Source of the DNA: Nitrospirota bacterium
Lineage (GTDB): Bacteria; UBA2233
Direction: 5' to 3'
Length of the DNA: 9,017 nucleotides
Assembly: GCA_011620345.1 (NCBI GenBank)
Contig: WOZJ01000051.1
Location: 1 to 9,017 of the forward strand
The position numbers and the translations under genes were made by a program. The stretch's first letter is position 1, and every line of letters begins with the position of its first letter. Below, one piece after another: positions 99 through 8,775 of the stretch. The notes under the pieces were generated by a model. That model did no database searches. It had not been told where the DNA came from and was given only the letters and a program-made list of their open reading frames with translations.

Positions 99-1370
99 TT
101 ACAACAAAAGCAGACTCAAAGAGGGCACGACGACGATCAGCGACAACGCCAAAAGTAGCAATACCTGGAAGGGAATGGAAAGCACGTAAACGGTGGCGAT
201 CGGCTGCTGGAACTTGTAGCTCGACAAAAACAGGTTAATGCCGATGGGCGGGGTCAGGTAGCCTACCTCCATGCAGGTTAAAAACACGATGCCCAAATGG
301 ACGGGGTGGACATGGAAGGCCTGGGCGATCGGGACGATCAAAGGCACGACGACGACTATGGCCGAGAAGATGTCCAAAAGGCACCCCACGATAAGCAAGA
401 AGAGTACAAGCGCAAAAAGGAACGACGTCTGAGAAGCAAGGTAACCTTGGCTGAAGGCAAGTAGCCTTTGTGGGTACATCTCGTACACGAAGAAGTTCGT
501 AAGCCCAAGGGCCAGCCCAAGGATCACAAAAAGCGCGCCCGTGATGACCATGGCGTCCACAATGACCCCCCAAAGCCTCCTTACGGGAACCTCCCTATAG
601 AGGAATACCTCGGCCACGATGGCGTAGGCGGCCGTGATGACGGCGGCCTCGAGCACCGTGACAAATCCCCCGTATATCCCGCCAAGCACGAGAAACGGCA
701 AAGGGAGCTCGTAGCGGGCTTCGATCAGGGCTTGGCGGATCACGGACACATTCGGCTTTTGCGTCGGGATTCCTTGCTTGATGGCCACGAACATGCTGTA
801 GAGCGCCAGGATGACGACTAAAAGGATGCCTGGGATGACGCCGGCCTTGAACAGCTCTGTCACGTCCGTTTGGGAGATCAACCCGTAGACGATGATCGGC
901 AGGCTAGGGGCGAACAAAAGCCCTAGGCTGCCGGATGTGGTAACGAGCCCTAGGGCGAACCTTTCGGAGTAGCCCTCCTTTATGAGTGCTGGGTACAAAA
1001 GCCCGCCCACGGCCAGGATGGTCGCCCCGGATGCGCCCGTGAACGCCGTAAAAATGGCGCAGGAAACGAGCGTAACGATTGCAAGCCCTCCAGGCAAAAA
1101 CCCAAACAGTGCGTTCGAAACCTCTACCAGTCGCCTTGGCATGCCGGATTCGGCAAGCAGAGAGCCCGCAAAGATGAATAAGGGCAGCGTGGCCAAGACT
1201 GGCGCCTGGGCGAGCCTGTAGACCTCTTGGATCAGGATGGCCCCGTCGAGCCCTGAAACCAAAGTCAGGCATAGGTAGGCGACACCACCGAGAATCAGGT
1301 AAAGGGGCAGGCCAAAAAGACCGGCGCCTAAGATGAGACTAACAAGAGGGGTGAGCATGGGGCATGGCAT
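99..1370 (-). CDS. dctM: TRAP transporter large permease (DctM)
   Basis: This is the large membrane subunit of a tripartite ATP-independent periplasmic transporter, which couples solute uptake to an ion gradient across the inner membrane. At 423 aa it is full length for DctM. It is hydrophobic throughout, with about 11-12 predicted membrane segments. Family hallmarks are the FGFLPGGLAI segment (about 89-98), TGASG in the first re-entrant hairpin (111-115), a GLLFAPSLPIIVYG loop (about 150-163), the LLDIFSAIVVVVPL stretch (about 331-344) and a GYLTPPIGIN motif near residue 370-379. It overlaps dctQ: starting at 1370 the overlap is 32 bp, while an internal ATG at 1358 (protein starting MLTPLVSLI) fits the usual DctM N terminus slightly better and gives a 20-bp overlap. 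Neither start has a strong ribosome binding site, so translation probably couples to dctQ. It is the only permease in the window, so it may serve both receptors. Confidence 0.96.
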   Translation of the reverse strand: MPCPMLTPLVSLILGAGLFGLPLYLILGGVAYLCLTLVSGLDGAILIQEVYRLAQAPVLATLPLFIFAGSLLAESGMPRRLVEVSNALFGFLPGGLAIVTLVSCAIFTAFTGASGATILAVGGLLYPALIKEGYSERFALGLVTTSGSLGLLFAPSLPIIVYGLISQTDVTELFKAGVIPGILLVVILALYSMFVAIKQGIPTQKPNVSVIRQALIEARYELPLPFLVLGGIYGGFVTVLEAAVITAAYAIVAEVFLYREVPVRRLWGVIVDAMVITGALFVILGLALGLTNFFVYEMYPQRLLAFSQGYLASQTSFLFALVLFLLIVGCLLDIFSAIVVVVPLIVPIAQAFHVHPVHLGIVFLTCMEVGYLTPPIGINLFLSSYKFQQPIATVYVLSIPFQVLLLLALSLIVVVPSLSLLLL

Positions 1371-1869
1371 CTCTAGCTTCGGTTACGGGGATAAAAACGC
1401 TTAACAGGTACCGAAGTGTGCTCGTAAAAAAGAACATGAAGATCGCGAACGTCAGCACCCAGTAAGGAAGAGCAAGCGAGAACGAAAACTCGCCCGAAAC
1501 CCATTCCATCCGAAGAAACCGGAAGGCGGCCCAAAGAAGCGCAAGGCTGATCAGGAAGGAAAGAAGGTCCATTAGCCTCCTGAAAGCGCGCCAAAAGTGC
1601 CCGGGCACGGCGCTCGAGAAGACATCTACCGTAATGTGTCGCCTTGTGTATGTAGCCAGGCTTGCCCCTAAAAACCCAACCCATAAAACCCCATGCCGGA
1701 TAGCCTCGTCGGCGAACCCAAGCCCCGTGCCGAAGAGGTTGCGAAGGATAACTTGTGCAGCCCCCAGCCCCAACACCCAGACAAAAAACAGCACAACGAG
1801 CGCCTCTTCGAACCTGGCCAATATCGCCGAAAACCTAGGGGCTAGCGGTGGGGGCACCTTGTTCGGCAT
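1339..1869 (-). CDS. dctQ: TRAP transporter small permease (DctQ)
   Basis: This is the small membrane subunit of the TRAP transporter; in the family it pairs with DctM and helps receive the loaded receptor. The protein has 176 aa and four hydrophobic segments (about 22-43, 58-75, 98-118 and 133-157), the normal DctQ topology. The region 52-82 carries the family pattern: an acidic residue after the first loop (FADEAIRHG), then W-x-GFLGAS and a basic turn followed by HITVDVF. The start ATG shares its first base with the last base of the dctP TAA (TAATG). No strong Shine-Dalgarno precedes it, so translational coupling to dctP is likely. Its 3' end is overlapped by dctM. The C-terminal tail (HAHPSC) is polar and not a family feature. 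Confidence 0.93.
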   Translation of the reverse strand: MPNKVPPPLAPRFSAILARFEEALVVLFFVWVLGLGAAQVILRNLFGTGLGFADEAIRHGVLWVGFLGASLATYTRRHITVDVFSSAVPGHFWRAFRRLMDLLSFLISLALLWAAFRFLRMEWVSGEFSFSLALPYWVLTFAIFMFFFTSTLRYLLSVFIPVTEARDAMPHAHPSC

Positions 1870-2915
1870 TACCGGGAAAGGCCTTGAGGTAGGGGTTTTC
1901 CTAACATTTTCAACAGCTCGACGAGCAAGCTTTTTGGGTACTGCCTGCCTGCCATCCGGACATAGAGGGCATCGAAGCGGCGCTTGAGCTCGGTCTTGAC
2001 ATCGTCAGAAAGCGGGACGCGTTCGATCCCCCTGCCAGGAAAAGCCTCGAGGAGCTTTGCGTTGTCCTGCCTGGCCACGAGCGCGATCTTCCTTGCGTAG
2101 GTTTGGAACGCCTTCGCAACCGGCCCTTGGTAGGCTTCTGGAATCGCATCGAATGCACCCTTTTCCATCACGAGAGCGGCCGAGCCGTATACAATTGGGT
2201 AATCCACCATCGAGCCGACGTGCGGCTGCCACTGAAGCGCCACGGCGGCAAGCGGGGTGTTGTAAAAGGCATCGATAAGCCTCGTCTGGAGCGCCGTGAG
2301 CACCTCGGGTACGGCAATCGGCACGGGCGTGACGACTCCTATCGACTTGAACACCTCCATGGCATAATCATCGCCCGCCCAGACCCAGACCCGCACGCCT
2401 TTTAGGTCCTCGAACCTCCTGACGGGCTTTTTAGAGAACAGGTACACGAACCCGTTCTCCGCCCACCCCATCAGCTTGAAGCCTTGCTTTTCAAATTCCG
2501 GGGCGAAAAAAGAGGGGGTTAGCGTGCCTAGCGCCTTGTCTACCTCGGCTTCGTCCTGGAACATGAGCGGAAGCTCTAGGATGCGCTCAGCGGGCAGAAT
2601 TTTGCCTAGCCCCATCCCTGTAAGCCCGGCACACTGGAGCTGCTTGAGGCGCATCTTACGGACCATATCGGCATCGTCTCCCATAATACCGCCCGCGTAG
2701 AGGACGAGCTCCACCTGACCGTCGGTCTTTTGGGCAATCTCTTTCCTTAGCTCTTCGGCCACGTTCATCCAGCTCGAGCCCGCCGGCGCGAGCGAGGCAA
2801 ACCGAAGCGTCGTTTTGGCAAGCGCCTTGGCTCCAGTTCCGAGCATGAACCCGGAAAACAAAAGGAAAGCCACGAGCCGGGCGGTTCTCTTGGGGCGCAA
2901 TGCATTCATACCCAT
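1869..2915 (-). CDS. dctP: TRAP transporter periplasmic solute receptor (DctP, TatP-like)
   Basis: This is the extracytoplasmic solute-binding protein of the TRAP system. From the chosen start it has 348 aa. A Sec signal peptide occupies about residues 1-34: basic MNALRPKRTAR, then a hydrophobic core, then ALA before KTTLRFASLAP. The mature part begins with the subtype pattern LAPAGSSW, then YAGGIMGD (73-80) and VRKMRLKQLQ (85-94). Arg175 in LKGVRVWVW corresponds to the conserved arginine that anchors carboxylates in many DctP proteins. An earlier ATG at 2957 would overlap tatT by 26 bp. The start at 2915 is preferred because GAAGGGG lies 8 nt upstream and the signal peptide then has normal length. 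The gene follows tatT by 16 bp and meets dctQ in TAATG. Pairing with TatT suggests the Treponema TP0957/TP0956 type of receptor, for which hydrophobic ligands were proposed; the ligand here is unknown. Confidence 0.93.
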   Translation of the reverse strand: MGMNALRPKRTARLVAFLLFSGFMLGTGAKALAKTTLRFASLAPAGSSWMNVAEELRKEIAQKTDGQVELVLYAGGIMGDDADMVRKMRLKQLQCAGLTGMGLGKILPAERILELPLMFQDEAEVDKALGTLTPSFFAPEFEKQGFKLMGWAENGFVYLFSKKPVRRFEDLKGVRVWVWAGDDYAMEVFKSIGVVTPVPIAVPEVLTALQTRLIDAFYNTPLAAVALQWQPHVGSMVDYPIVYGSAALVMEKGAFDAIPEAYQGPVAKAFQTYARKIALVARQDNAKLLEAFPGRGIERVPLSDDVKTELKRRFDALYVRMAGRQYPKSLLVELLKMLGKPLPQGLSR

Positions 2916-2931
2916 ATCCCTTTCCCCTTCT

Positions 2932-3804
2932 TTAGAAGTAGTCTTTTTTATGCGCAAGCATCCAGTCGGCCTTTTGCTTTGCCAGGTCGTTCACGAGCCG
3001 CGCTTCGGGAAGGATGTCTGGGTCGGCCCTGAGAACGCGCTGGAGCACCCTATCGAAGGCATCTTCTTTCTTGAATAAAGTCAGATAGTACCTTGCGTAG
3101 AACACGTCTACCAGAAGAAATTTGCCATTTGTCACATCCCGGGCAGCACGAAACTCCTGAATAGCCTTTTTAGGGCCTCCGCCTAAGAGCTCCGGCAAGG
3201 AAGCGTATAACGCGGCATAGAACAAATGACTCAGGCCGTAGAAATACTTGCCGTCAATTTGTTGGGACCTTTGAATGAGGGCTATCACGTAGGGCATGTC
3301 CATCAAGGCTACGGCATCGGCCTTTTTTAAATTGAGAAGCTGTCCCCAGGCAACCCCAGTCCAGGTGAGCGCCCCTAGGTACTCGGGCCCAACTTGAGGG
3401 GCGGCCTCCAGGATACGGTTTGGCCCCTTTGCCTTCTTGAACGGCTTAGAGTTCTCGAGCGCCTGAAGCCCGCGGTCACGGCCGATCCTGTAAAACTCCT
3501 CTGCATAGGCGGGGTTCTGATCTTCGACAAACAGGGCGTAAGAGGTGTAAGCCTGGGCACAGAGCGTAAGCAAGCGGGTGTCTTTTGGGGCAAACTGGGC
3601 CAGCGCGTCTACCAACATGAGCAGGCCAGGAAGCCCCTCCTCGGTCAGTTTGGCGCTGCTTGTCTGCATGAGTTTATCGACCGTATCGACAAGAATAGGG
3701 CCGGAGGCCTTGACCCCCTGGCGCTCCATGGTGGCACAGCCGAAAGGAAAGATCGAAACGAGTAAGCCCAGCAGAACAGGTAATAAAAAGCGCCGACTCC
3801 GCAT
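2932..3804 (-). CDS. tatT: TatT-family TRAP-associated lipoprotein
   Basis: This 290-aa protein matches the TatT component family (Treponema pallidum TP0956 type), an all-helical TPR-like lipoprotein thought to sit at the periplasmic face and bind the receptor as an extra TRAP subunit. A short signal peptide (about 1-22) ends in PFGC-ATM, with Cys23 as the likely lipidation site; Pro at -3 and Phe at -2 are unusual for a lipobox. The helical body carries family-like blocks: TWTGVAWGQLLNLKKAD (about 147-163), a run of large helices around 170-200, LLGGGPKKAIQEFRAAR (206-222), NGKFLLVDVFYARYY (226-240) and a final F-x-x-x-L-x-x-VL block. The ribosome binding site AAGGAGG (3810-3816) lies about 5 nt before the ATG. 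It is the first intact gene of the transporter operon, 16 bp after the GMC remnant's stop and 16 bp before dctP. Confidence 0.85.
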   Translation of the reverse strand: MRSRRFLLPVLLGLLVSIFPFGCATMERQGVKASGPILVDTVDKLMQTSSAKLTEEGLPGLLMLVDALAQFAPKDTRLLTLCAQAYTSYALFVEDQNPAYAEEFYRIGRDRGLQALENSKPFKKAKGPNRILEAAPQVGPEYLGALTWTGVAWGQLLNLKKADAVALMDMPYVIALIQRSQQIDGKYFYGLSHLFYAALYASLPELLGGGPKKAIQEFRAARDVTNGKFLLVDVFYARYYLTLFKKEDAFDRVLQRVLRADPDILPEARLVNDLAKQKADWMLAHKKDYF

Positions 3805-3820
3805 CTTTCCCTCCTTGATT

Positions 3821-4200
3821 TTAGACTCCAGACCCCTTTGTTGTAAGCCCAGATTCTCTGGCGAGGTCGTGTGCTAGTCTGAACCCGAACGCCATGACAC
3901 TTATCATCCCATCCTTAAAACTCTCCGTATCCGTGCGATTGAGATTATACCAAAGAAGGAACCTTTTATTGCCCATCCGAACCACACGCATCGAAGATGT
4001 GTCCGAGACCATTACGCCATCATCCCCCCTTGAACGTAGAGCTTGCGGAACATCTCGTATGGCCTGGAGCTGAAATCTTCTTGGGTGAGACTTGGCCCCA
4101 TTTAGAGGACCGCGACGTCCATCCCTCGGCAAGCAAGCCGGTAGGCCACAGAGGCTCCGCCCGTCCCCCAAGCCTATAACGAGAACCTCCGGGGTTGAAC
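3821..4200 (-). pseudogene. Decayed, internally deleted GMC-type FAD oxidoreductase
   Basis: Joining reading frames recovers a GMC N terminus: VLVIGLG (from 4186), then after a one-base slip TGGASVAYRLA and RGMDVAVL, giving the FAD-binding GxGxxG Rossmann fold. The slip lies in a run of five G (4165-4169); four G would restore frame. A TAA at 4104-4102 then interrupts VL-*-MGPSLTQEDF, where the family normally has VLE-x-GP, so one base change (GAA to TAA) would explain it. The same frame continues through RPYEMFRKLYVQGGMMA and stops again at 4014-4012. A third frame (from about 4030 to the stop at 3823-3821) has MVSDTSSMRVVR and then LLWYNLNRTDTESF plus KDGM, which resembles the late, substrate-domain part of GMC enzymes. 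Several hundred central residues seem to be missing, as do the C-terminal catalytic motifs. GMC enzymes oxidise alcohols with FAD. It lies directly upstream of tatT on the same strand. Lesions are seen in the sequence; family assignment is from motif memory. Confidence 0.7.
3944..3952 (-). promoter_or_regulatory. Candidate extended -10 promoter inside the GMC remnant
   Basis: Read on the minus strand this is TGGTATAAT: a perfect -10 hexamer (3944-3949) preceded by the TGn of an extended -10. Transcription would start near 3937, about 130 nt before the tatT ATG. No good -35 hexamer is visible at the right distance. The bases also encode W-Y-N of the old GMC protein, so the match could be coincidental. 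If real, it could supply tatT-dctPQM downstream of the terminator at 4252-4282. Confidence 0.3.
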
Positions 4201-4251
4201 ACGAACAGGCCCAAGGAACAGCCCTAGCCCTACCATGAAGGCCCTTAAAAA

Positions 4252-4282
4252 CTAAAGCAAGGAAAGCGTCTCCTTGCTTTAG
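4252..4282 (-). terminator. Intrinsic terminator in the leader of the minus-strand operon
   Basis: A perfect 12-bp inverted repeat (CTAAAGCAAGGA at 4252-4263, TCCTTGCTTTAG at 4271-4282) encloses a 7-nt loop. On the minus strand the stem is followed by AGTTTTTAA, giving a U5 tract, so it should terminate leftward transcription. On the plus strand it is followed by ATGGGTG and lacks a U tract. It lies between the minus-strand promoter (4405-4433) and the GMC remnant/tatT. It may be an attenuator, the 3' end of a small RNA, or the terminator of a gene since lost. Confidence 0.7.
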
Positions 4283-4316
4283 ATGGGTGAAAAACTTCGT
4301 TTCGTTCGTTCTATAT

Positions 4317-4336
4317 CGAGCTCAGGTCAGAGCTCG
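4317..4336. repeat. Small palindrome (7-bp arms)
   Basis: CGAGCTC (4317-4323) and GAGCTCG (4330-4336) flank a 6-nt spacer, forming an inverted repeat within the minus-strand leader. It could form a small RNA hairpin ahead of the terminator or act as a dimeric protein-binding site. The sequence does not show which. Confidence 0.4.
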
Positions 4337-4401
4337 GCCGGTACCGCATTCAATAGGTAGGCTTCAAAAAAGGCTTCCGTCGTACTCCTTACTTTTAGAG
4401 C

Positions 4402-4430
4402 TTGTTTATAGCATAGAAGTAGGTTATTAT
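4402..4430 (+). promoter_or_regulatory. Candidate sigma70-like promoter for the oxidation operon
   Basis: TTGTTT (4402-4407) and TATTAT (4425-4430) are separated by 17 bp; the -10 matches 5 of 6 and the -35 matches 3 of 6. Transcription would begin near 4437 and run toward the small membrane-protein gene and the dehydrogenases. It overlaps the stronger opposing promoter almost exactly, so the two probably compete for polymerase. Confidence 0.35.
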
Positions 4431-4433
4431 CAA
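4405..4433 (-). promoter_or_regulatory. Candidate sigma70-like promoter for the minus-strand leader/operon
   Basis: On the minus strand TTGATA (4433-4428) and TATAAA (4410-4405) are separated by exactly 17 bp, with each hexamer matching 5 of 6 consensus bases. The predicted start is near 4398. The transcript would meet the terminator at 4252-4282 after about 150 nt, before reaching the GMC remnant and tatT. This is the best promoter match in the window. Confidence 0.55.
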
Positions 4434-4491
4434 AAACGTGGTTGGTCATGAAGCACTCATGCTAAAGGGTCACCAAACAGAAGAATCTCCT

Positions 4492-4512
4492 CTTTAATCT
4501 TTAATCTTTAAT
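4492..4512. repeat. Three tandem copies of CTTTAAT
   Basis: Perfect 7-bp direct repeats lie at 4492-4498, 4499-4505 and 4506-4512, upstream of the plus-strand gene and downstream of the promoter pair. The array is AT-rich and could arise by replication slippage or serve as a binding site. No known operator is recognised. Confidence 0.65.
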
Positions 4513-4553
4513 TATTTATTCTCTTTCGATAAAAAGTTTATGGGGTAAAATAA

Positions 4554-4990
4554 TTGAGAATCAAAATAACCTTGGTTTTATGCAGCATACTGTTTTTCTT
4601 GTATGCCCTTGGTGGTTTTACGTTTGCCCTGGCGACTAAGACCACCATATCCTTGGTTAACCATATTGGTGAGGGTATTTTTGGCCTAAAGCCCTCCCCA
4701 TTGCCAGAAAGCGCCTTCTTTAGCCCCCTTGCAGCCGGAATGATGGCCACGATCCTTCTTGCATGGCCGAGAGTCCCCCGGAAACTCTCCTCAAGATTCT
4801 CGTCCCTGTACTCGGGGCTCGCTTGCCCCAGCTTGGGTTTATCCGGCTATACCACGAAGGCGCCTGGTTTTCCAAAGGGCTGGCCGCTGTCGAGACCCAC
4901 AGGCCAGAGGGCATAAAAGTTCCCTTGCACGCCTACGCCTTTATAAAAAAGCGCTACAAGGAGCTCAAAACCAACATGCGTACCACGTAA
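4554..4990 (+). pseudogene. Small membrane protein, probably frameshifted
   Basis: Two overlapping frames look like halves of one protein of about 145 residues. The first (from a TTG at 4554) has a hydrophobic segment at about residues 4-26 (ITLVLCSILFFLYALGG), a polar loop with NHIGEGIFGL and PLPESAFF, and a second hydrophobic segment PLAAGMMATILLA; after about 4763 it turns into compositionally unlikely sequence. The second frame takes over at 4763 (MAESPPETLLKILVPVLG, then GAWFSKGLAAVE and HAYAFIKKRYKEL) and ends at 4990. A one-base deletion near 4761-4763 would link them. The second frame has no ribosome binding site, which argues against a separate gene. The family is not recognised. It ends 16 bp before the ALDH ATG, so it was probably the first gene of that operon. 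Alternatives are a sequencing error or two separate small ORFs. Confidence 0.5.
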
Positions 4991-5006
4991 AAAAGGGAGG
5001 TTAGAG

Positions 5007-6524
5007 ATGGCCAGCGATCCAGATTACGGAATGTTCATCAACGGCGAGACTATTTCATCGGCCTCCGGAGAGGTATTTCAACTGACCGACCCCTCTACGG
5101 GCGAGCCGTTCACCACGGTCGCCAAAGGCAGTCCAGACGACATCGACAGGGCCGTACGCATAGCCCGCGAGGCCTTTGAATCCGGGGTGTGGAGCGAAAA
5201 GAGCCCCAAGGAGCGGGCGGCAATCATGCGGGCGATTGCGGCCAAATTCCTCGAGCGAGCCGAGCAGTTTGCCTTGGCCGAGGTTCAGAGCTCAGGCACG
5301 ACGATTAGGCGTTTCCTGAACGTAGACGTCGTTTTGGTAATGGATTTATTCCTTCGGATGGCCGAGATGCTCGAAGAGTTTCCGCACAAAGAGGTGCTCG
5401 ATGCCATCCCCATTCCAGGCCCATCGCACGATTTTGTCATCCGCGAGCCCATAGGCGTCTGCGGGATGATCACGCCCTGGAACTTCCCCTTGATTCTCGC
5501 AAGCTGGAAGGTGGCCCCCGCCCTGGCCATGGGAAACACGATGGTTATCAAACCGGCGAGCTACACGCCTCTGTCCACGCTCCTTTTGGCCGAGGTTTGC
5601 ACCGAAGCGGGCGTACCGCCGGGCGTAATCAACGTCGTTCCGGGGCCTGGCGGCGTCACCGGCGAATCGCTCGTCACACACCCAGAAGTAGACAAAATTG
5701 CCTTCACGGGCTCGACCGTCGTGGGCAGACGGATCATGCAGCTTGCCGCGGGCACGATCAAAAAGGTCACGCTCGAGCTTGGCGGCAAGTCGCCCAACAT
5801 TATTCTGGACGATGCCAACCTGGACGTTGCCGTGCCAGGGTCGCTGTTTGCCTTCTTAATGCACAACGGTCAGGTCTGCGAATCCGGAACGAGGCTCTTG
5901 GTTCCAAAGGGCCTTCATAACGAGATCCTCGAGAGAATGTGCGCCATCGCCAAGAATTTGAAGGTTGGAAGCCCGTTGGATCCAACGTCCGACATGGGCC
6001 CGATCGTATCCAAATCCCAGCTCGAGACGATCCTAAGCTACGTCGATGCGGGCAAGCAAGAAGGCGCAAGGCTCGTCATCGGCGGGAACCAGCTCCATCC
6101 CGAGGGCTACGAGGGCGGCTACTACATGGAACCCACGATATTCACGGACGTTAAAAACGACATGCGAATTGCCCAGGAAGAAATCTTCGGGCCCGTGCTT
6201 GTCGTGATCACGTACGAAGACTTGAATGATGCCTTAAGAATCGCCAACGACACGATTTACGGGCTTGCGGGTGGGGTATGGACCCAAGACCCCGAAAAAG
6301 CGCTCTACGTCGCAAGGAAGATCAAGGCGGGCACGGTATGGGTCAACGACTGGCATATTTTACGGAACGACGGTCCGTTCGGCGGCTACAAGCAGTCAGG
6401 CATCGGCAGGGAGTTGGGGCACTTCGGCCTGGAGGAGTACAGCGAAGTCAAGAGAATACATACGTCCATGGTGCCCGAGCGCGAAAAGCGGGCCCTTTAC
6501 GACCGCGTGTTGACGCTTCGATAG
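5007..6524 (+). CDS. NAD(P)-dependent aldehyde dehydrogenase
   Basis: This 505-aa protein is a full-length member of the aldehyde dehydrogenase superfamily, cytoplasmic, oxidising an aldehyde to the carboxylic acid with NAD(P)+. Landmarks: PWNFP with Asn159 (oxyanion), Lys182 in the IKPA motif, FTGSTVVG (233-240) in the cofactor domain, Glu257 in LELGG (general base), Cys291 in GQVCESG (nucleophile), Glu392/Phe394 in EEIFGPV (cofactor ribose binding), and PFGGYKQSGIGRELG near the C terminus. All catalytic residues are present. It resembles the broad aliphatic/betaine-aldehyde type rather than CoA-acylating enzymes, so the product should be a free acid. GGGAGG (4995-5000) lies 6 nt before the ATG. 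The Fe-type alcohol dehydrogenase follows 33 bp downstream, implying a two-step alcohol-to-acid pathway. Substrate is not deducible. Confidence 0.95.
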   Translation: MASDPDYGMFINGETISSASGEVFQLTDPSTGEPFTTVAKGSPDDIDRAVRIAREAFESGVWSEKSPKERAAIMRAIAAKFLERAEQFALAEVQSSGTTIRRFLNVDVVLVMDLFLRMAEMLEEFPHKEVLDAIPIPGPSHDFVIREPIGVCGMITPWNFPLILASWKVAPALAMGNTMVIKPASYTPLSTLLLAEVCTEAGVPPGVINVVPGPGGVTGESLVTHPEVDKIAFTGSTVVGRRIMQLAAGTIKKVTLELGGKSPNIILDDANLDVAVPGSLFAFLMHNGQVCESGTRLLVPKGLHNEILERMCAIAKNLKVGSPLDPTSDMGPIVSKSQLETILSYVDAGKQEGARLVIGGNQLHPEGYEGGYYMEPTIFTDVKNDMRIAQEEIFGPVLVVITYEDLNDALRIANDTIYGLAGGVWTQDPEKALYVARKIKAGTVWVNDWHILRNDGPFGGYKQSGIGRELGHFGLEEYSEVKRIHTSMVPEREKRALYDRVLTLR

Positions 6525-6557
6525 ACCAAAGCTTAATTTCTACGAGGAGATGCAACG

Positions 6558-7751
6558 ATGCCGACGACGCTATCCCAGTTTTTCTTAAAAACGGCCGTTT
6601 ATCAGGGCCAGGGGGCGCTTGCGATGGTCCCAGACCTCTTGGCCGGCTTGGGCGCCAAAAAGGCCGTCCTGTTCTCGGATTCTGGGATTCAAAAGACCGG
6701 CCTTGTGGACAAACTAGCAAGGCTCTTTGATCTCCCCTCCAAGGGGGTAACGACCACGCTCGTGGGCGTGTTTACGGACATCCCTCAGGATGCCGAAAGC
6801 TCCAAGATTAACGAAGGGATCCGCTTTGTCCGTGAAAAGGGCGCGGATGCGCTCGTAGCGATCGGCGGGGGCAGCGTGCTCGATTTCACCAAAGGCGTAA
6901 AGTACGGGCTGTACAAAGGGGTGGAGGACATTTTGGATGTCATCCCGGGAAACTTCGCGTTCGTTCCCTGGCCAAAAGCGCAGCTCATCCCCATCCCGCA
7001 CCTGGCCATTCCCACGACTGCCGGGACAGGAGCGGAAGTCTCGCCGATCTGCGTCGTATACAACGAAAAGCAGCGGGTCAAGGCAAACCTCCTGCACCCG
7101 TTCGTCAACGCAGACATCGCGGTTTTAGACCCAGACGTAACGCTAGGCCTTCCAAAGTCGCTTACGGCCTCGACCGCGTTCGATGCGCTCACGCATGCCG
7201 TAGAGGCACTCTTTTCTCCTACGGCGTTCGCCTTTACAGACGGGTTCGCGCTGAGGGCGACCGAGCTTATCTTCCGCAACCTTCCCAAGGCCCTAGAAAA
7301 CCCGAAGGATGTCGAGGCCAGGAGCGAGCTTTTGGCCGCATCGGCCATGGGGATTACGGCCTTTACCTACGCGTTGTCGGCCATTCCGGTGCACAACCTT
7401 GCGCATGCGCTGGGCGCGCAGTACCGGATTCCTCACGGGCTTGCCAACGCGGTCCTTCTTACGCGAGTCATGGAAGCCATGCCGGAGTTCTACGAGAGGC
7501 GGGCCAGAGACCTGGCCAAGGTACTCGAGGTTCCGCTTGAAGGCGATGGCCGAAAGCTCCTTGAGGCCTCGATCGAGGCAATCAAGGGCTTAAGGTCCCG
7601 ATCCGGCCTGCCGGACACGTTCAAAGAGTTTCATATCCCGAGCTCCGAGCTGGACGCTGCCGTCATGGCAGTCATGAAAGACCCCTCCGGGGTGCTCTTT
7701 CCCATCCCGGAAGAGGCGATCCGGAACATCGTCTCATCGGTCATCGGTTGA
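6558..7751 (+). CDS. Iron-containing (group III) alcohol dehydrogenase
   Basis: This 397-aa cytoplasmic enzyme of the Fe-ADH family interconverts an alcohol and an aldehyde or ketone with NAD(P). The N-terminal dinucleotide domain holds GGGS (103-106) and the PTTAGTGAEVS motif (about 152-162). The helical metal domain has ligands Asp209 and His213 (FDALTH), His279 (VHNLAH) and His293 (PHGLANA), with the 14-residue spacing between the last two seen in FucO; His283 is near the nicotinamide in relatives. All four ligands are intact. AGGAG (6545-6549) lies 8 nt before the ATG. It sits between the ALDH (33 bp) and the second TRAP receptor (22 bp), so the three are likely co-transcribed. The aldehyde it makes probably feeds the ALDH. 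Substrate and metal (Fe2+, or Zn2+ in some relatives) cannot be told from sequence. Confidence 0.94.
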   Translation: MPTTLSQFFLKTAVYQGQGALAMVPDLLAGLGAKKAVLFSDSGIQKTGLVDKLARLFDLPSKGVTTTLVGVFTDIPQDAESSKINEGIRFVREKGADALVAIGGGSVLDFTKGVKYGLYKGVEDILDVIPGNFAFVPWPKAQLIPIPHLAIPTTAGTGAEVSPICVVYNEKQRVKANLLHPFVNADIAVLDPDVTLGLPKSLTASTAFDALTHAVEALFSPTAFAFTDGFALRATELIFRNLPKALENPKDVEARSELLAASAMGITAFTYALSAIPVHNLAHALGAQYRIPHGLANAVLLTRVMEAMPEFYERRARDLAKVLEVPLEGDGRKLLEASIEAIKGLRSRSGLPDTFKEFHIPSSELDAAVMAVMKDPSGVLFPIPEEAIRNIVSSVIG

Positions 7752-7773
7752 CACCAACAGGCAGGAGGGTTTC

Positions 7774-8775
7774 ATGGGCTGGCCAAAGGCCTTTATGCAA
7801 TGTTCGATCGCAGCGCTGTTCACGGTCTTGCTCTTCCAAACCTCTATGGCGGCCGAGCCGGCCGTGATCAAGATCGCCACGCTCGCCCCCGATGGGACGG
7901 CCTGGGCGGAGCTCGCCTCCAAGATCAAGCGCGACATCGAAAGCGCCACATCGGGGCGCGTGCGGGTAATTCTGTACCTTGGCGGCGTGATGGGCAACGA
8001 TAAGGACACGGTCCGCAAGCTCAGGCTGGGCCAGCTCCAAGGGGGAGGGTTCTCGGCTGAAGGAACCTTCCTGGCCTGCCCCGAGACGGGCGTCATGCAG
8101 CTGCCGTACCTGGTCGATTCCTACGAAAAGGCGGACAGGGCACGTGAGCTGATCCGTCCCGACCTTGATGCGGCCGCCCAAAAGAACGGCTTCAAGCTCC
8201 TTTGTTTTATCGAGCAGGGATACGATGCGCTCTACTCGAAGGACTTTCCCATCCGAAAGCTTGAAGACATGAAGAAGGTCCGCACGTACGCATGGTCCGG
8301 CCCAATCGAGGAAGAGATGCTCAAGGCCCTGGGAACAAGCCCGTTCGCCATCGGGGCGGCAGAGTCCGTGGCCGCACTGCGCTCCGGGATCGTCAACACC
8401 GCTCCTGCGCCCGCTCAGTGGGTCCTTGGCACGCAAGAATACACGTTCCTTAAATACATCAACCTGCACAACTGGCACTACATGCCTGCCGCGATCGTCT
8501 TGACCCAAAAGGCCTTCGCAAGCATTTCTTCGGAAGATCAACGGGCCGTTTTGGAGATCGGCAAACGCTACGAGCCCTTGTTCGTCAAAGAGGCTAGGGA
8601 ATCCGAAAGGAAGTGCTACGAGGCCTTCCAAGAGTACGGAATGCAGATGGTTACGCTCAACCCCCAAGAAGAAGCCCTCTTTAGGAAAAAAACCCGCCCG
8701 GTATGGGACAAGCTTGTGGGAAGGTATTATTCCAAAGAAATGCTAAAGAAAATCGAATTTCTCGGAGCCCGCTAG
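7774..8775 (+). CDS. dctP: Second TRAP periplasmic receptor (DctP/TatP-like) without its own permease
   Basis: This 333-aa periplasmic solute receptor starts with a signal peptide (about 1-27, hydrophobic core IAALFTVLLF, cleavage near SMAA). The mature part matches the receptor encoded at 1869-2915 in layout: IKIATLAPDGTAW, YLGGVMGND (68-76), VRKLRLGQLQ (80-89), and Arg170 in KKVRTYAW for ligand anchoring. The two diverge strongly in the ligand-facing middle: here GGGFSAEG and NTAPAPAQWVL, against CAGLTGMG and YNTPLAAVALQW there. A different ligand is therefore plausible. AGGAGG (7763-7768) precedes the ATG by 5 nt, and the Fe-ADH ends 22 bp upstream. No dctQ or dctM follows: next comes a convergent gene. 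It may deliver substrate to the DctQM at 99-1869 or to one elsewhere, or act as a sensor input. Confidence 0.92.
   Translation: MGWPKAFMQCSIAALFTVLLFQTSMAAEPAVIKIATLAPDGTAWAELASKIKRDIESATSGRVRVILYLGGVMGNDKDTVRKLRLGQLQGGGFSAEGTFLACPETGVMQLPYLVDSYEKADRARELIRPDLDAAAQKNGFKLLCFIEQGYDALYSKDFPIRKLEDMKKVRTYAWSGPIEEEMLKALGTSPFAIGAAESVAALRSGIVNTAPAPAQWVLGTQEYTFLKYINLHNWHYMPAAIVLTQKAFASISSEDQRAVLEIGKRYEPLFVKEARESERKCYEAFQEYGMQMVTLNPQEEALFRKKTRPVWDKLVGRYYSKEMLKKIEFLGAR

Follow-up and report, generated by a model that had tools for sequence, protein, structure and literature searches.

TatT-associated TRAP transporters and receptors lacking the carboxylate-binding arginine

Receptors of the DctP family of TRAP transporters contain a conserved arginine (Arg147 in SiaP) that restricts them to carboxylates, and about 3% of the family lack this residue (PMC4646407). 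Among the arginine-free receptors are Tp0957 of Treponema pallidum, the pocket of which is hydrophobic, and Csal_0678, a receptor for ethanolamine (PMC4646407). Tp0957 is the receptor (TatP) of the Treponema TPAT system, which also comprises TatT (Tp0956) and the permease TatQM. Free-living carriers of TPAT systems are mostly hydrocarbon degraders (PMC5812351).

The locus considered here can be assigned to the phylum UBA2233 (Candidatus Cutipiota), whose two listed genomes, one from oil-contaminated soil and one from a tailings pond, measure 1.8-1.89 Mb (PMC11382960). It combines a complete TPAT operon with a second, orphan receptor of the same class that is encoded beside an alcohol dehydrogenase and an aldehyde dehydrogenase. 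The arrangement is real and conserved, and is built from known families.

Organisation of the locus

The window, that is, the whole stretch of DNA analysed, is 9017 bp long and constitutes one entire contig (C31) of a draft assembly that totals 1.80 Mb and comprises 72 contigs. It carries seven genes, all with intact frames and Pfam matches above cut-off, in two transcription units. The minus strand encodes TatT, a T component of the TPR type (2932..3804; PF16811, E 6.7e-51), the TatP-type receptor DctP1 (1869..2915; PF03480, E 2.1e-42), the small permease subunit DctQ (1339..1869; PF04290, E 3.2e-20) and the large permease subunit DctM (99..1370; PF06808, E 2.9e-76; TIGR00786, 321 bits, above cut-off), the last being one of three DctM genes in the genome. 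The start of DctP1 at 2915 was picked from the sequence, where the ATG is preceded by GAAGGGGAAAGGG; the open reading frame list gives 2957. TatT, DctP, DctQ and DctM therefore lie in overlapping or adjacent frames of one operon, the arrangement that defines a TPAT system, and the four Pfam matches bear out the preliminary description, which had recognised a complete TatT-DctPQM operon on this strand. In the PDB, TatT matches 8g52 and the Treponema TatT structure 3u64.

The plus strand encodes an NAD(P)-type aldehyde dehydrogenase of the betaine-aldehyde dehydrogenase group (ALDH, 5007..6524; PF00171, E 3.7e-171), an iron-dependent alcohol dehydrogenase (Fe-ADH, 6558..7751; PF00465 and PF25137) and the orphan TatP-class receptor DctP2 (7774..8775; PF03480, E 1.6e-42). 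The genes are separated by 33 and 22 bp, respectively, in both species in which they occur (see below), and GGAG-type ribosome sites precede Fe-ADH and DctP2, so that all three are likely to be carried on a single transcript. Gene content and spacing thus agree with the earlier proposal that an orphan TatP-like receptor shares an operon with the two enzymes. This operon had also been described as facing the transporter operon; its genes are as stated, and it indeed lacks a permease, but the two units diverge head to head. The interval originally given for the module (1869-8775) omits DctQM (99-1869), and the relevant interval is 99-8775.

We take the Cys of GQVCESG and the Glu of LELGGK to be the catalytic residues of ALDH, and the Asp and three His that are readable in AFDALTHAVE, LAHALG and RIPHG to be the metal ligands of Fe-ADH. 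The best PDB match for both enzymes is the BdhE fusion enzyme (9ldl), followed in the case of Fe-ADH by the methanol dehydrogenase 8zrl. ALDH scores 534.8 bits against TIGR01804, below the cut-off of 668.6, and the score against the NCBIfam model for GbsB-type choline dehydrogenase is 186.3 of the 550 bits required. Since these equivalog cut-offs for choline and betaine-aldehyde enzymes are missed, the substrate is not assignable to those pathways.

Conservation in a second genome

The comparison set included one other genome of this phylum, from the same genus (hereafter the sister). When named genomes were searched with DctP2, the sole match was a 95%-identical receptor on DDYN01000051.1 of "Nitrospirae bacterium UBA2233". 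The whole block is collinear in the sister, with 93-97% protein identity. Rough estimates of dN/dS by the Nei-Gojobori method, from this one pair of genomes, are 0.13 for DctM, 0.29 for DctQ, 0.11 for DctP1, 0.19 for TatT, 0.08 for ALDH, 0.10 for Fe-ADH and 0.16 for DctP2. The block is under purifying selection and is not a product of chance, and the value for DctP2 indicates that the orphan receptor is maintained and not decaying. Adjacency of the two operons in a single genome, which the preliminary description had named as an observation that would speak against a joint module, is not what we find, as the sister has the same arrangement.

No TatT or permease gene is present in the operon of DctP2 in either genome, and no DctQM adjoins DctP2 within the 9017-bp contig or in the longer sister locus (L028). 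In the latter, 7 kb could be read past DctP2 and contain no permease, TatT or evident regulator; the gene next to DctP2 encodes a MaoC-type hydratase. The preliminary description had also proposed a search for the pair of orphan receptor and enzymes in related genomes. It was found in the sister, and the search outside the phylum gave no example: the block did not turn up in any other phylum examined, and neither an Fe-ADH nor a close ALDH lies beside the receptor in any of about 50 receptor neighbourhoods from those phyla. The ALDH/Fe-ADH/DctP2 trio thus has two known occurrences, both in genomes of a single genus in this phylum.

The divergent intergenic region (3805..5006) measures 1.2 kb in the window and about 0.43 kb in the sister. 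It is thus 0.8 kb longer here, with positions 3835-4867 unmatched in a blastn comparison with the sister locus (about 10994-11421 of L028). Promoter- and terminator-like sites in or near this region, including those for sigma-54 and sigma-70, showed no excess over shuffled sequences, a search for a shared regulatory site found none, and the region contains no Rfam match and no tRNA. Immediately upstream of ALDH, the sister contains an open frame of ~96 codons; the window retains only its final 40 codons or so, and a 120-residue open reading frame at 4554-4916 is unrelated to it.

Relatives of DctP2 and the other TRAP loci of the two genomes

The window's genome encodes five DctP, three DctM and four TatT proteins. 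DctP2 is only 29.6% identical to DctP1, in keeping with its earlier characterisation as strongly diverged. Its closer relatives are the DctP of an operon on contig C50 with the order TatT-DctQ-DctM-DctP (47% identity) and two further orphans, one on C72 (45%) and one on C17 of the sister (49%). In a maximum-likelihood tree of 57 receptors, DctP2 groups with the C50, C72/C54 and C17 receptors in a clade (support 99/97) that excludes DctP1. A common origin for all the receptors of this phylum is not rejected (p-AU 0.065), and they may be either old paralogues or separate acquisitions. The TatT genes of the phylum form one clade (100/99), which makes the TatT partners of both receptor types close relatives. 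Among the 386 genomes sampled, the best relatives of DctP2 are TatT-associated or orphan receptors of the TatP class.

The kinship between DctP2 and the C50 receptor makes the C50 DctQM, acting in trans, the first candidate for its permease, with the neighbouring DctQM as the second. The sister, too, carries the C50 operon, as a 93% DNA match that stops inside DctM at the end of a contig. The preliminary description had regarded a dctQM pair elsewhere that consistently accompanies the second receptor as an observation that would refute its proposal, and the occurrence of the C50 operon in both species goes half of the way towards this. Two other possibilities were considered and discarded. The sister gives two DctM matches only, as if it lacked the C50 operon, an absence that would have forced sharing of the neighbour's permease; the DNA search found the operon, cut by the contig end. 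A conflict between the receptor and TatT trees, which would have shown swapping of receptors, was not established, given the p-AU of 0.065 for one receptor clade and the lack of resolution in the DctM tree.

Other TatT/TatP loci of the two genomes adjoin genes for enzymes of lipid or aldehyde conversion. Neighbours include enoyl-CoA hydratase and MaoC-type dehydratase genes at C50, acyl-CoA ligases at C26, acyl-CoA dehydrogenases and a CoA-transferase at C72/C54, a molybdenum oxidoreductase at a TatT on C22 of the sister, and a ligase and an acyl-CoA dehydrogenase at the C17 orphan, a counterpart of which was not found in the window's genome. The presence of lipid and aldehyde enzymes beside TatT/TatP loci agrees with the remark on hydrocarbon degraders (PMC5812351), an agreement that serves as context and does not amount to a test.

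The two genomes contain further variations. The C17 orphan (L029:5822-8667) is situated just upstream of a gene for a PAS-STAS signalling protein on the same strand. A second type of TRAP system has long receptors of 480-514 residues with Cys or Ala at the arginine site: in the sister a pair of these receptors, sharing 58% identity, is encoded with a single DctQM and without TatT (contig C53, L031:4314-9283), and the window's genome encodes one with DctQM and TatT (C26, L027:6044-10278). A TatT without a TRAP neighbour is retained in both genomes (L026:8919-9875 and L117:7352-8353; 90% identity, dN/dS 0.19); nearby lie an enolase-like gene and a gene for a pyridine nucleotide-disulfide oxidoreductase that includes a rhodanese domain. 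In the sister a lone TatT, likewise with no receptor or permease, is separated by 17 bp from a downstream molybdopterin oxidoreductase gene, after which come genes for a 2Fe-2S subunit and XdhC (C22, L118:6636-11393).

The arginine site

The position equivalent to Arg147 of SiaP was examined in an alignment that included four solved canonical receptors (4n8y, 8t9t, 4p47 and 4p1e), all of which have arginine there. None of the 57 TatP-like receptors does; 47 have tryptophan, mostly within a W-x-W-x-G-D motif. Tryptophan also occupies this column in 12 of 12 further relatives, and outside the phylum the counts are 57 Trp, one Phe and no Arg among 58 receptors. DctP1 conforms, with Trp in the sequence WVWAGDD. 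In DctP2 the residue is Tyr and the motif is altered to YAWSG-P (YAWSGP), and the whole clade with the C50, C72 and C17 receptors deviates from it. Neither receptor of the window thus has the arginine expected of a canonical organic acid-binding DctP. Within the clade, Tyr in DctP2 corresponds to His in the C50 receptor, Cys in C72/C54 and Pro in C17; the occurrence of a different residue at the selectivity site of each paralogue suggests that they may bind different ligands. An AlphaFold model of DctP2 built from four sequences was too poor for use (mean pLDDT 41.7).

Receptors and permeases in other phyla

Relatives of DctP2 with E values of 1e-30 or better occur in 66 of the 386 genomes. 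TatT is found in 85, nearly all with one or two copies, compared with four each in the window's genome and the sister. Receptors frequently outnumber permeases in these genomes. With one full-length DctM match each, there are at least 8 receptors in G151, at least 5 in each of G289, G015 and G211, at least 4 in G341 and at least 3 in G070, counts that are lower bounds since scoring was limited to the five best receptors of each genome; one additional marginal DctM-like match occurs in both G151 and G289. Tandem receptors are encoded in the order T-P-P-Q-M in G015 and P-P-Q-M in G211, G341 and G070, and the tandem pairs of G211 and G341, each served by one DctQM, are divided between two clades that are kept across genera. 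In four other genomes (G345, G293, G006 and G154) a TatT-DctP pair lies far from the sole DctQM, within 1.5 kb of which no receptor is encoded; the distances are 0.48 and 1.18 Mb in the two genomes that consist of a single contig, G345 and G293 (the loci in this group are L079, L086, L124, L129, L131 and L132). In view of this receptor excess and of the distant TatT-DctP pairs, the simplest reading of these gene arrangements is that receptors of the TatP class would work in trans in several separate genomes. No direct example of TRAP receptors sharing a permease, or of receptor exchange, was found in the literature searched.

Possible function of the orphan receptor

We tentatively favour an account in which DctP2, an orphan receptor of the TatP class, would capture, on the periplasmic side, a ligand that is not a carboxylate and is probably hydrophobic (an alcohol being the most plausible), and would deliver it in trans to a DctQM encoded elsewhere, that of the C50 operon being the first candidate and the neighbouring one the second. 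The probably co-transcribed Fe-ADH and ALDH would presumably oxidise the alcohol to the aldehyde and then to the acid inside the cell, a direction suggested by their families, and the resulting acid could enter the acyl-CoA metabolism of the organism. The occurrence of the arrangement in a single genus and the lack of a shared regulatory site among those searched for weigh against this account, and the location of DctP2 beside a complete TPAT operon speaks for the permease of its neighbour and against the pairing with C50. It may be, then, that DctP1 and DctP2 both deliver to the DctQM of the window and that TatT passes the ligand to either of them. The operons are divergent neighbours in both genomes, the close relationship among the TatT proteins of the phylum would suit such an arrangement, and the T-P-P-Q-M order and the receptors of separate clades on one DctQM provide parallels. 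We nevertheless consider it rather unlikely, as DctP2 has so little identity to DctP1 and clusters with a receptor that belongs to a different operon; the receptor tree, for its part, decides neither for nor against a common origin of the receptors of this phylum. The preliminary proposal that receptors share a permease is thus strengthened by the parallels in other phyla, and its choice of the neighbour's permease is weakened because the closest permease-linked relative of DctP2 belongs to C50 (47% versus 29.6% identity).

Neighbouring ALDH and ADH genes are frequent among prokaryotes (PMC12454647), and this counts against the favoured account. DctP2 might have been placed by a chance rearrangement behind a general aldehyde-detoxifying pair, with no functional relation to it, and the lack of a matching trio in the receptor neighbourhoods of other phyla would fit such an origin. 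The tight spacing, the same gene order in both species, the purifying selection on all three genes and the fact that other orphans of the DctP2 clade also adjoin catabolic genes make this explanation less probable than either choice of permease. It is least likely of all that DctP2 feeds no permease and acts as a sensory component in the periplasm, reporting the alcohol to a regulator. To our knowledge, the TRAP-linked receptors that have been characterised are transport proteins. A sensor would be in keeping with the lack of an adjoining permease and with the position of the related C17 orphan ahead of the PAS-STAS gene, but in neither the window nor the longer sister locus does a kinase, chemoreceptor or regulator gene adjoin DctP2, so that the role in sensing initially suggested as an alternative finds no support at this locus.

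Comparison with known systems

The minus-strand operon resembles the Treponema TPAT system in that TatT (PF16811), receptor and permease share an operon and the receptor lacks the canonical arginine, and sequence matches connect TatT and both receptors with their Treponema counterparts. It differs in having separate DctQ and DctM and an extra orphan receptor beside ADH and ALDH. At the arginine position, Ala has been reported in Tp0957 (PMC4646407), compared with Trp in DctP1 and Tyr in DctP2. Csal_0678 is like DctP2 in having no equivalent of Arg147, and its ligand is an amino alcohol (PMC4646407). With respect to the enzymes, BdhE (PDB 9ldl) and the AdhE fusions are single polypeptides, whereas ALDH and ADH are here encoded in two frames with a stop codon and 33 bp between them. 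The gbsA-gbsB pairs are similar in type, although the enzymes of the window score well below the NCBIfam cut-offs for betaine-aldehyde dehydrogenase and GbsB. We know of no receptor gene that belongs to the BdhE or gbsA-gbsB systems.

To these systems the present analysis adds the true kin of DctP2, the class-wide loss of the arginine with Trp as the rule, and the receptor excess and trans arrangements in several phyla. The link between an orphan receptor and an ADH/ALDH operon narrows the ligand of a TatT-associated TRAP system to what the enzymes can process, and a surplus of receptors relative to permeases predicts that receptors are exchanged. A further, more doubtful possibility is that TRAP systems of the TatP class are modular, such that one or a few DctQM would serve an enlarged set of arginine-free receptors, each encoded together with enzymes for its own non-carboxylate substrate, and that DctP2 would be one dedicated to an alcohol that the ADH/ALDH pair oxidises. 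A precedent is found in the Bug/TctC orphans of Bordetella, which belong to the tripartite tricarboxylate transporters: there too receptors far outnumber permeases and are scattered, some of them by catabolic genes (PMC5812351). That transporter family is unrelated, its known ligands are mostly small acids and the excess is larger (76 receptors in B. pertussis). If the modular reading is true, the receptors described here would constitute a TRAP counterpart of the Bug receptor expansion, for alcohols and lipids.
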